Positions 22,681-26,375 of a DNA stretch of 64,000 nt are shown in pieces (the first letter of the stretch is position 1; every line of letters starts with the position of its first letter). The DNA comes from a virus, in IMG/VR virus record IMGVR_UViG_3300020215_000052, positions 1-64,000 of that record; one strand, written 5' to 3'. A program made the translations under genes and the position numbers. A model generated the notes under the pieces. That model was not told the DNA's origin. It saw nothing but the letters and a program-made list of their open reading frames with translations, and searched no databases.

Positions 22681-22698
22681 ACTCTTGGAGGGATAGAT

Positions 22699-23787
22699 GT
22701 GGCTGTACATCCCATCAACGTGCTTGAGGTCTGCTCCGGCTACGGAGGCCTCGGCCTCGCCCTTGACGTGGCATTGGGAGGCGCTCGCACGGTCTGCCAC
22801 GTTGAGAGGGAAGCATTCGCTGCCGCGACGTTGGCAAGGCGCATGGCGGAAGGCACCTTGGATGAGGCACCTATCTGGTCTGACCTGCTCACCTTCGACG
22901 GCAGGCCGTGGCGTGGAGTCGTGGGTGGAATCGCTTCGGGCCTCCCCTGCCAGCCCTATTCCACGTCCGGGAAGCGATTGGGGCATGCCGACGAGCGAGC
23001 CATCTGGCCGCACTTCTGCCGGGTCGTTGAGGAAGTCCAGCCTCAGTTCATCTTCCTTGAGAACGTCCCAAGGTTCCTTGCCTTTTTCGAGCCGGTCGCG
23101 CTCCGACTGGAGTGGCTGGGTTACCGAGTCGAAACGCCTCTCGTCCTCGGTGCGGACGATGTTGGCGCGAGCCACAAGCGCAAGCGCGTCTTCATCCTGG
23201 CACACACCGGATGCAACGGGCGCAGCGGTCAACTGGCCGACGCCGACCGTCTGCGGCAACGACAATCGCAAGGGGGCAAGCACAACGAGCGGGGATGGAC
23301 TCCAGACGGCGGTGAAGATCTGGCCGACCCCGTGCGCATCGGACGGCAAGCGGGGCGACCGCACGGAGCACTGCGCGCAGGACCCGAGAGCGGGCATGGA
23401 CCTGATGACTGCTGCCATGAACTTCCAGAGACCGACTCCAGTGACAGGTGGCGACCGTGGACCGACGGAGACTTCCCCGGAGATGTGGGCGACGCCGACA
23501 GCCAGGGATGGGAAGGACGGCACAGCGGCCTTTGCCGAGGTGGACACGAATTCGCTTCTTGGGAGAGAGGCGCCCCGCTGGGCCTTTTCGCATGGGGACC
23601 TGGTGACCGACGGTGGGCGGATCCACCCGCCTCAGTCGATCCGCCTCAACCCGCGCTTCGCAGAGTGGCTGATGGGTCTGCCCCTTGGATGGACCGATGC
23701 CGAGCTGTCGGCAATGGAGTGGTGCCACTGGCAGCGGCTATTTCGTTCAGAATACTCGCGGCTCGTGCGGGTCTTGTCGAACTCTGA
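22699..23787 (+). CDS. DNA cytosine-5 methyltransferase
   Basis: GTG 22699 with GGAGGG 6 nt upstream. Motif I LEVCSGYGGLG (9-19), catalytic PCQ with Cys84 (GLPCQPYSTSG), ENVP (121-124) and motif VIII KRKRVFI (160-166) are all intact. After residue 170 the frame reads LADADRLRQRQ... and ends AVGNGVVPLAAAISF, as in many C5 enzymes. The frame one base ahead also reads as a conserved domain (see 23205). It methylates cytosine in phage DNA to evade restriction. The target site is not predictable. Confidence 0.85.
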   Translation: MAVHPINVLEVCSGYGGLGLALDVALGGARTVCHVEREAFAAATLARRMAEGTLDEAPIWSDLLTFDGRPWRGVVGGIASGLPCQPYSTSGKRLGHADERAIWPHFCRVVEEVQPQFIFLENVPRFLAFFEPVALRLEWLGYRVETPLVLGADDVGASHKRKRVFILAHTGCNGRSGQLADADRLRQRQSQGGKHNERGWTPDGGEDLADPVRIGRQAGRPHGALRAGPESGHGPDDCCHELPETDSSDRWRPWTDGDFPGDVGDADSQGWEGRHSGLCRGGHEFASWERGAPLGLFAWGPGDRRWADPPASVDPPQPALRRVADGSAPWMDRCRAVGNGVVPLAAAISFRILAARAGLVEL

Positions 23788-23824
23788 TCTGGTCAGCGCG
23801 GTACGACGGGAGGGCGCAGCATGA
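23205..23824 (+). other. Second coding-like frame over the methyltransferase C-terminus
   Basis: In the +1 frame relative to 22699, residues read WPTPTVCGNDNRKGASTTSG, WPTPCASDGK, RPTPVTGGDR, WATPTARDG and LNPRFAEWLMGLPLGWTD. This WPTP pattern is known as the C-terminal part of phage C5 methyltransferases. Its stop (23822-23824) overlaps the next gene by ATGA, exactly like the other junctions in this operon. Either the real product shifts frame near 23200, or the sequence has an indel there, or both frames are used. Confidence 0.5.
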
Positions 23825-24402
23825 AACAGAAACCATGGTGGTGGAGGCGTCCCATGCTGCGTGACCTCCTGTTCCGTCTGAGCGACGGCCTGCCCTGCCG
23901 GGTCATCCACCAGGTCCAGGGCACGCCGTACCTGGAACGCTACCACGTGGCCAGCGCGGGCCAGGTCAACGTGTACCTGCACCGGTTCGTCGGCGACGAC
24001 GCCCCAGGCGTGCTCCACGATCACCCCTGGCCGCTCGCCCTGAGCCTCATCCTCTGGGGCGCGTACCGGGAGGAGCGGCTGGAGCAGATCCACCATGCCG
24101 TCACCCGATGGAGGGTACTGGGGCCGGGGCGTCTCAACCTCATCCGAGGGAACGACCATCACCGTGTCGAGTTGGTCTCCCCCGAGGTCTGGACGCTCTT
24201 TGTCACCCTCGGCAAGACCAAGGGGTGGGGGTTCCTGACCGGGTTCGGAGGGGCGACCATCCACACCCCGTGGAGGACCTTCCTGGGGGAGGGTGGGGCC
24301 GCCACGCATGATGGAGCAGAGCATGGGGAATGGCGGTGGTGGTTGCGAGCGCCCCTTGGCCGGGACGCAGATGGCAGGGTTGAAGGGGCGGTGGCCCCAT
24401 GA
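23821..24402 (+). CDS. Cupin-like phage protein
   Basis: 193 residues, ATG with GGGAGG upstream. The central region (VNVYLHRFVGDDAPGVLHDH, PWPLALSLILWGAY, RLNLIRGNDHHRVELVSPEVWTLFVTL) has the His-rich strands of the cupin fold, with HDHPW as the likely metal site. This protein type is common next to phage methyltransferases, but its substrate is unknown. It overlaps both neighbours by 4 nt. Confidence 0.7.
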   Translation: MKQKPWWWRRPMLRDLLFRLSDGLPCRVIHQVQGTPYLERYHVASAGQVNVYLHRFVGDDAPGVLHDHPWPLALSLILWGAYREERLEQIHHAVTRWRVLGPGRLNLIRGNDHHRVELVSPEVWTLFVTLGKTKGWGFLTGFGGATIHTPWRTFLGEGGAATHDGAEHGEWRWWLRAPLGRDADGRVEGAVAP

Positions 24403-25181
24403 TGCCCTACGCCAACGGCATGCGTCATGCTGTCCCCGACGCCCTGCGGTCCCCGGGTGACGCCTACATCACAGAGGGGTGGGTCGTGGCCCACTGGCTA
24501 CGTCAGACCCTCTATCAGCCGCCGCCCGAGCTGCTGGTCTGGGATCCTGCCGCGTGCGGGGTTGCAGGCTGGGCCATCGGGAGAGCGCTGGGCCTCGCCT
24601 GGGATCGCCCCTTCCGGCTCTCGGACATCCGGCCTCAGGGGCCCGGGGTGGAGGTGGAGTCCTTCCCCACGGACGGCTCGCCAGCTCCGCGCCCGGAGCA
24701 CGATGGGCCGGTTCTCCTGGCCACGAACCCTCCGTTCTCCGACCTATCCGCATGGATCGTGGCGTGGCGGAGGTCCGCCCGGCTGGGCGACGCGATGCTC
24801 CTCGTCAGCGACTCGGGGGCGCTCACGACGGCGGAACCCCGCGCCTATGGGATGGCCGAGCGGGTCCAGCCCTGCAAGCGTATGGCGTTCGGCCTCACCT
24901 CTGACGACGCAGACCACCTCCGGAGGCTCGTGGCCTCTGGGGAGAGAGCTCCTCAGCCTATCTCTACGGGAAACCACAAGACCGGCCCAACCGGCGAGGG
25001 GATGCCCAGCACGGGCAAGGCACACTGCTTGGGTCTCTGGACCTGGCCGCCGTCGCACTGGAGCGGATCACGAGAGGTCTGCGAGCCGGTCATTCCGGCG
25101 GATCTCTGGATGGGCGACCTGTTGATGCAGCGGTGCGCCGAGGCCGTCGGGCTGGTAGCGGCGAAGCAGGAGGCGGCATGA
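24399..25181 (+). CDS. Putative N6-adenine-type DNA methyltransferase
   Basis: 260 residues, ATGATG start overlapping the previous stop. SAM-binding motif I appears as VWDPAACGVAGWAIGRAL (47-64) with an acidic SDI after it. Motif IV is NPPF (110-113) in LLATNPPFSDLSAWI. The order I then IV fits gamma/N6-adenine enzymes or relatives. DPAACG differs from the usual DPxxGxG, so the enzyme is probable rather than proven. It sits between the cupin and Dam-like genes. Confidence 0.65.
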   Translation: MMPYANGMRHAVPDALRSPGDAYITEGWVVAHWLRQTLYQPPPELLVWDPAACGVAGWAIGRALGLAWDRPFRLSDIRPQGPGVEVESFPTDGSPAPRPEHDGPVLLATNPPFSDLSAWIVAWRRSARLGDAMLLVSDSGALTTAEPRAYGMAERVQPCKRMAFGLTSDDADHLRRLVASGERAPQPISTGNHKTGPTGEGMPSTGKAHCLGLWTWPPSHWSGSREVCEPVIPADLWMGDLLMQRCAEAVGLVAAKQEAA

Positions 25182-25399
25182 TCGGCCGAGTCACCAGCCG
25201 CCAATATCGAGAGCGGATCCGCGCTCTCACGGAAGCGGCCGAGCACCTGGAGAGCAAGGCCTGGGACCAACCGCACCTGGAACCGGGCGAGTGGCTCATG
25301 GCCGCCAGGGCGATCCGGGGACTCCTGCCGCGGCTCTACCGAGCCGAGAGCCGAGCCAGAGCGCTTGAGGCGGCAGGCGATCGTGGGGTTCCCACATGA
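25178..25399 (+). CDS. Small helical protein
   Basis: A 73-residue protein between two methyltransferases, coupled by ATGA at both ends. Helical and charged (RQYRERIRALTEAAEHLESK, WLMAARAIRGLLPRLYRAESRARALEA). No motif; may be a phage regulator or accessory subunit. Confidence 0.55.
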   Translation: MIGRVTSRQYRERIRALTEAAEHLESKAWDQPHLEPGEWLMAARAIRGLLPRLYRAESRARALEAAGDRGVPT

Positions 25400-26375
25400 G
25401 AGATCCCGCCTGGATCGAGCCCTTCGCCGGCTCCGCCGCGGTCGCCCTCCACCTCCTGGGCGGGTCGCCCCCGATCGGGTACGCGGGGAACAAGCGGGCC
25501 GCGGCGCCGGCCATCGCGGCCCGGCTCTGGGGTGACCGGGGAGATCCTGGTCGCATCGTCCTCGCCGACGTCGGCCCCTGGGGCGTGGTCTGGCGGGTCG
25601 CCGCTGGGGGGGGCTGCCCCGGGTTCTCCGCTGCATGGAGGGCTGGCCCGCCATGACTGACCGCGACCTCTGGCACATCCTCGCCGAGCAGGTTCCCGAG
25701 GACCCGATCGAGTTCACGGCGGCCTACCTGCTCGTCCAGGCCCGGCAGGCGCATCACGCTCCGATATGGGTGCGAGGAAGCGCCGGCGGGCCACGCGGGC
25801 TGTGCGACCCCACCCACCGGGCCACGGAGACGTGGGCAAAGGACAGCGGGACCCGGCCCCATCACAAGGCAGCTGGGTCGTCGTGGCAGCGGGAGAACAC
25901 CAAGCCGAGCCACCACGCGGCGCCCCGGGCGAAGCAGTGGGGTGACGCCCTCTCTCGGGCCACCCTCCAGCAGCGTGTCGCCGACCTTTGTGCCCTCCCC
26001 TGGCAGCGGGTCGTGGTCGTGCCTGACGCCGACGCAGCGGTCTCCCTGGCCCGGCGCGGGGATGTGGTCTACCTGGACCCTCCCTACCTCCACGCCAAGG
26101 TGAGGTACGCGCGGAAGGGTCTCCCAACGGAGGACCTGGAGGCGCTGGCGATGCGACCGGCCGAGAAGGGGGCCGTCGTCGGCATCTCCGAGGGATACCC
26201 GCTGCCCGGGCTGGTCCGGCTGGGATGGCTGGTGGAGGACATCACGCGGCACTTCCGGGGCAGGAGGTCTCCCGGCGCGGAGTGGCTTACGAGATTCGAC
26301 CCGTGCTGGTGGGACGGCAGGCAGGCGACGATCTGGTCGCTGGTGGGTCGCGAGGGATGGAGGGCAGCAGCATGA
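25396..26375 (+). CDS. Dam-type (D12 class) adenine methyltransferase, split by frameshift
   Basis: Two reading frames together make one D12-type enzyme. 25396-25605 encodes motif I WIEPFAGSAAVALHLLGG and VGYAGNKR-like residues, then RIVLADVGPWGVVWR. The -1 frame then continues from the 8-G run at 25606-25613 (GLPRVLRCMEGWPA... through 26375) with DPPYLHAKVRYA as motif IV. Unshifted translation stops at 25656. The G run contains a possible G-GGG-GGG slip site, so the shift could be programmed, a mutation or an assembly error. It methylates N6 of adenine, probably protecting phage DNA. Confidence 0.7.

Follow-up and report, generated by a model that had tools for sequence, protein, structure and literature searches.

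Two Fully Overlapping Same-Strand Reading Frames of a Phage Locus Probably Encode the Two Chains of a Split Cytosine-C5 DNA Methyltransferase

The window, a stretch of 64,000 nucleotides from an IMG/VR virus record of 68 kb, harbors a locus in which two ORFs, alpha (main frame) and beta (+1 frame), drawn from the same 1.1 kb of the same strand, very probably encode a two-polypeptide C5-methyltransferase, with alpha as the catalytic and beta as the recognition chain. Both frames were found to be open and under purifying selection in many phages, with the constraint handed over from one frame to the other at motif VIII. Translation of both ORFs, assembly of the chains, and a DNA-methylating activity of the product are inferred. 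An earlier note on this DNA had proposed a dual reading of the methyltransferase C-terminus (23205-23824); the dual reading proved to be real but was drawn too narrowly, as the overlap spans the whole gene.

Genetic Organization and Family Identity

Both frames gave sensible matches at the place indicated in the earlier note. Alpha matched the Pfam family DNA_methylase (PF00145, 6e-25) and PHROG 363 (2.6e-46), along with TIGR00675 at 4.5e-18, a score under the cut-off of that model. With motifs I, IV (PCQ), VI (ENV), VIII, and X conserved, alpha belongs to the cytosine-C5 DNA methyltransferases (PF00145). Beta matched PHROG 1008, annotated as "DNA methyltransferase" (4e-17), as did 96 of 96 homologues, and a Pfam search with beta returned no hit. 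PHROG 363 and PHROG 1008 are separate families in the library, both labeled DNA methyltransferase, whereas here they represent two frames of one locus. The beta sequence includes WPTP repeats together with LNPRFAEWLMGLPLGW. Its segment RLNPRFAEWLMGLPLGW was taken to be motif IX by comparison with the M.HhaI stretch R..TP.E....MGYP, and within it residues L317, N318, P319, F321, M326, G327, P329, and W332 occupy near-invariant columns.

The spacing between GGAGGG and the start codon is 4 nt for the beta ATG and 6 nt for the alpha GTG (Table 1). At the 3′ end, alpha closes with ...RCRAVGNGVVP followed by a short tail, and its stop lies 37 nt before that of beta. The +1 frame, as had been noted earlier, overlaps the next ORF at an ATGA. 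Genes for a DnaB helicase and an integrase are located upstream of the locus. Further downstream, an ORF at 24399-25181 (+) contains an NPPF motif and is adenine methyltransferase-like, with no Pfam match, and the region including it may be a methyltransferase cluster. An ORF at 25635-26375 (+) showed a weak match to D12-type adenine methyltransferases (DPPY), which at E 0.009 did not reach the Pfam cut-off. It is overlapped by 22 nt, in a different frame, by an ORF at 25396-25656 (+) with a FAGS-like motif, and these two ORFs are possibly another split methyltransferase.

Table 1. Features of the alpha/beta locus, in positions of the window, and the motif X ORFs of three relatives, in positions of the loci named
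Feature	Position	Strand	Details
Alpha ORF	22699-23787	+	362 aa, GTG start, main frame (frame 0)
Beta ORF	22697-23824	+	375 aa, ATG start, +1 frame, co-extensive with alpha
Shine-Dalgarno-like GGAGGG	22687-22692	+	From sequence; common to alpha and beta
Twin start ATGTG	22697-22701	+	ATG at 22697 for beta, GTG at 22699 for alpha
Beta N-terminus MWLYIP	22697-22714	+	Conserved as W-[LI]-[YH]-x-P
Alpha motif I, LEVCSGYGGLG, SAM binding	22723-22755	+	C12, G14, and G16 invariant in alignment
Alpha motif IV, GLPCQPYS, catalytic Cys84	22939-22962	+	Invariant in homologue alignments
Alpha motif VI, ENV	23059-23067	+	E121 and N122 invariant
Alpha motif VIII, GASHKRKRVFILA	23164-23202	+	R161 and R163 invariant
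TRD zone	23206-23595	+	Recognition domain in beta; open, unconstrained linker in alpha (LADADRLRQRQ...)
Beta WPTP repeat 1	23234-23245	+	From sequence; alpha reading LADAD
Beta WPTP repeat 2	23321-23332	+	From sequence; alpha reading LADP
Beta WATP repeat	23486-23497	+	At least 90% of homologues conserve W264
Beta motif IX (presumed), RLNPRFAEWLMGLPLGW	23642-23692	+	Alpha reading PALRRVADGSAPW
Alpha motif X, GNGVVP	23710-23727	+	Conserved in homologue alignment; NN/SN 0.04; ordered helix
ATGA	23821-23824	+	Start of downstream ORF overlaps beta stop
Motif X small ORFs of relatives	L035 2915-3172; L077 3122-3406; L048 3074-3337		Downstream of the alpha-linker stops

The structural model of alpha was confident over residues 1-170 and 331-356, the latter being the motif X helix, and residues 195-291, which correspond to the TRD zone, were disordered with pLDDT below 50. 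The best PDB matches of this model in Foldseek were M.HaeIII and M.HhaI, aligned through the catalytic domain over ~170 columns, and alpha shares the fold and motifs of their catalytic domains. The model of beta had a mean pLDDT of 57.8 and was confident only over the C-terminal ~65 residues (about 310-375), and neither sequence search nor fold search matched beta to an entry in the PDB. Such low confidence and the lack of a PDB match would be expected for a small domain modeled in isolation from its partner, though they are not proof of one. Taken as predictions, the two models fit, but do not prove, a large domain with a partner-dependent small domain.

Openness of Both Frames

For the window alone, synonymous-codon shuffling of alpha predicted 1.84 stops in the +1 frame, with P(0) = 0.10, and the openness of that frame in this single sequence is only suggestive. 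A scan of viral contigs with the single alpha sequence found no relatives, and alignments were required. Viral contigs were retrieved separately with a +1-frame alignment and with a main-frame alignment, and loci from bacterial genomes were retrieved by the main-frame (alpha) alignment alone. Among 47 non-redundant viral loci from the main-frame retrieval, the alpha envelope contained 17 stops in the +1 frame against 131.8 expected, all of them near the ends of the envelope. Trimming of 36 nt from each end left no +1 stop in these loci against ~100 expected by synonymous shuffling, and the +2 frame of the trimmed loci, with 399 stops against 457, was near expectation. The N-terminal half of beta (first five deciles) likewise had no stop in the 47 loci, where ~69 were expected. 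The +1 ORF was also kept in all 80 bacterial-genome loci, mostly from Rhodobacteraceae, with a minimum overlap of 722 nt. The partner lay in the same relative frame in 173 of the first 174 loci, and openness persisted where the overlap had less than 50% GC. A count of +1 stops restricted to the stretch where the two open ORFs intersect is biased by construction, and the main test did not rely on it.

The alpha linker was evaluated with beta held fixed and its synonymous codons shuffled, in 231 loci of which 131 were non-redundant. Between motifs VIII and X, the alpha frame of the 131 non-redundant loci contained 28 stops compared with 427 expected, and the third frame of the same region contained 862 compared with 775. 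True dual coding across homologues, with both frames open over the whole gene, is supported by these observations. The earlier note had listed it among its readings and had named homologues that break one of the frames as evidence against it; the check, run on the homologues, left dual coding standing. An indel or frameshift introduced by sequencing was excluded, as the same frame relation recurs in hundreds of independent homologues.

Selection Acting on Each Frame

Each nucleotide change was classed as synonymous or non-synonymous in alpha and in beta. The dN/dS sample comprised 62 independent sequence pairs with a mean identity of 89.7%, and the analysis by zones comprised 57 pairs; the control for codon-position rates, taken from flanking genes, was small (7 ORFs). 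From the start to motif VIII, dN/dS was 0.23-0.29 for alpha and 0.66-0.84 for beta, and in the second half it was 0.69-0.76 for alpha and 0.27-0.30 for beta. By zone, alpha NN/SN and beta NN/NS were 0.22 and 0.74 over motifs I-VIII, 1.08 (0.97-1.20) and 0.22 (0.17-0.28) over the TRD, 0.73 and 0.47 over motif IX, where both frames are constrained, and 0.04 and 0.33 over motif X. The frame under constraint changes just 3′ of alpha motif VIII, lying in alpha over motifs I-VIII and X and in beta over the TRD and motif IX.

Within the TRD zone, the amino acids of alpha are unconstrained and those of beta are constrained; the TRD is therefore coded by beta. Alpha is neutral in this zone yet kept free of stops, which fits a chain whose translation has to cross a passive linker before motif X. 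The N-terminal half of beta, in turn, fits a weakly constrained leader translated en route to the TRD. The main-frame C-terminus that had earlier been likened to known methyltransferases was thus partly upheld, GNGVVP being a real motif X and LADAD... an open linker.

Paired Start Codons

The beta start was located in 137 of 153 non-redundant loci, 1-3 codons before a conserved Trp. Relative to it, the nearest alpha-frame start lay at +2 nt in 64 loci, at -4 in 57, and at +5 in 12. Part of this twin-start pattern is non-independent evidence, because a GTG at +2 follows automatically from ATG-TGG (M-W); the arrangements at -4 (e.g., ATGAATG) and +5 are not automatic. In the first beta codons, the second positions (third positions of alpha) were 80-98% one base and the third positions (first positions of alpha) were mostly free, and therefore the beta reading is the conserved one.

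Proposed Enzyme and Alternative Explanations

In the proposed enzyme, alpha would form the catalytic large domain with the SAM site, the PCQ nucleophile, and motifs VI and VIII, and would continue after motif VIII as an open, sequence-indifferent linker across the TRD zone to motif X. Beta would form the small domain: a leader of ~170 weakly constrained residues, produced by translating the catalytic region in +1, would lead into the WPTP-repeat TRD and motif IX. A single Shine-Dalgarno sequence would serve both start codons of ATGTG, allowing either protein to be initiated there, and the alpha and beta chains would assemble into one enzyme. The split has a published precedent in M.EcoHK31I and is supported by two further clades, in which motif IX is likewise read in +1 and beta starts internally.

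The order of strong constraint, alpha followed by beta and again by alpha, is the order of a normal C5-methyltransferase, and true single-chain relatives exist (L009, L272). Both points would suit a single chain made by programmed frameshifting, in which motifs I-VIII are read in alpha, the TRD and motif IX in +1, and motif X again in alpha. Such a chain, however, requires two separate shifts, has no need of an open N-terminal half of beta (0 stops vs ~69) or of an open alpha linker (28 vs 427), and makes the conserved start and N-terminus of beta superfluous. A scan for a conserved slippery site at the junction found none, the commonest 7-mers being TGGCCGA and those of the TTCATCC type, which correspond to WP(T) and FIL. 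Frameshifting into a single chain is accordingly regarded as improbable. A similarly low probability was given to an explanation in which the real protein is only the C-terminal part of beta, made from an internal start, with the openness of the N-terminal half and MWLYIP being incidental. The N-terminal half is indeed weakly constrained and poorly ordered in the model, and L275-like and L271-like relatives have an internal beta start; in the clade of the window, by contrast, that half is free of stops and the first codons are conserved in the beta and not the alpha frame. Full-length and internal beta starts could both be used.

A further explanation, scarcely credible, attributes the open +1 frame to chance or to the codon bias of GC-rich DNA, and its methyltransferase likeness to an echo of the alpha motifs. 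Openness in the window alone is not significant, and conservation of alpha by itself confers some resemblance, permuted sequences scoring ~40 bits against the +1 profile. When the +1 translations of the real loci were scored with a profile built from five other loci, however, the median was 156 bits, and in 122 of 122 loci the translation outscored its own permutations. The low beta ratio over the TRD and the openness at low GC also stand against it, and chance or GC-rich openness was ruled out across homologues by synonymous shuffling. The two-polypeptide enzyme is the reading retained here.

Variants Among Relatives

In the window and in nearly every locus with a recognizable motif IX, this motif lies in the +1 frame. 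The regular expression for motif IX missed most Rhodobacteraceae loci and was applied to the other clades only. In loci retrieved with the alpha of a Paenibacillus phage and with that of an Escherichia phage, motif IX, where recognizable, was in the +1 frame with one exception. Most of these loci carry motif X in alpha, and their beta starts inside alpha with a conserved N-terminus of its own. In 27 of 34 and 13 of 15 non-redundant loci of these two types, the +1 runs exceeded 100 permutations.

Four loci (L035/L036, L077, and L048), in which many stops break the alpha linker at the rate of neutral sequence, were counted against the two-polypeptide model. Motif X is placed in these loci on a separate small ORF (Table 1). 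The ATG of this ORF follows a good ribosome-binding sequence in two of them, AGAGGAGG in L035 and AAGGAG in L077; judged by its sequence, this arrangement looks like a natural three-part split. In L171 (1932-4506), the alpha/beta locus is seemingly interrupted in the TRD zone by ~1 kb, perhaps an inserted element, and the C-terminal part is in another frame.

In L009 and in Mycobacterium phage Graduation (L272), motifs I-VIII, IX, and X share one frame and the +1 frame has stops. Across the TRD, the stop-broken +1 frame of L272 (gp47, 915-1742) nevertheless yields LLPTPLARDSKG, possibly a remnant of an overlapping state. The earlier note had also raised the idea that frameshifting had given rise to one of the two known C-terminal types from the other. 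This idea was upheld in part: the two types represent one DNA read in two frames, and conversion of single-chain into split forms by frameshift, or the reverse, is plausible because single-chain relatives exist.

Comparison With Known Systems

Two-chain C5-methyltransferases are known in kind. Examples are M.EcoHK31I, which recognizes YGGCCR, and M.AquI, which recognizes CYCGRG. The gene for the small subunit of M.EcoHK31I reportedly lies within the large gene in another frame. The larger subunit of this enzyme carries motifs I-VIII and X and the smaller one motif IX, and the predicted TRD was placed in the large subunit (PMC3404938). Compared by its published description, the locus studied here is similar in the allotment of motifs I-VIII and X to alpha and of motif IX to beta. 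It differs in that selection places the TRD in beta, and in that beta is as long as alpha and shares its start site.

M.AquI consists of two chains split in the variable region (PMC3404938). The window locus differs from it in having motif X on alpha, rather than motifs IX and X on the second chain, and in the complete overlap of the two ORFs; the loci L007-L014, with motif X in beta, fit the M.AquI type. In M.HhaI and M.HaeIII, unlike here, the TRD and motifs IX and X are in one frame and one chain.

Annotation, Breadth, and Implications

The overlapping arrangement is kept in hundreds of phages and prophages and is usually annotated as a single gene. Both frames were open in 20 of 20 cultured-phage records, of which 11 had alpha annotated, nine had beta, and none had both. 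Closely related phages annotated in opposite frames include Synechococcus phages Yong-M2-251 and Ssp-JY39, Pseudomonas phages Marin and Shamal, and Vibrio phages 1.003.O and 1.236.O. Proteins of the form "LADA...ADGLA..RVDRLR..GNGVVP" are, among the examined relatives of this family, alpha subunits with an unannotated beta. Because gene callers retain a single member of an overlapping pair, half of the enzyme is missing from many phage annotations.

It is likely that split C5-methyltransferases encoded by complete same-strand overlap form a widespread and largely overlooked class in phages and prophages. In the clade of the window locus, the full-length subunits would start 2-5 nt apart behind a single ribosome-binding site, with the TRD wholly in the +1 frame, and in some lineages motif X would have moved to a third chain. 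In a literature search that covered few subscription papers, no report turned up of the full overlap, the paired starts, the TRD assignment, the breadth, or the third ORF; such an absence is weak evidence. As far as could be found, the new features are the extension of beta over all of alpha, the twin starts, the coding of the TRD by beta, the spread of the arrangement among phages, and, in four loci, a third small ORF with motif X.

If such a "methyltransferase" is recoded for cloning on the basis of a single frame, the protein obtained will probably be inactive. The overlapping loci would supply many natural two-part methyltransferases, and the two-part M.EcoHK31I has already been used for targeted methylation (PMC3439449). 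A long, conserved overlap with a hand-over of selection also offers a test case for how nearby starts share ribosomes and how overlaps persist.
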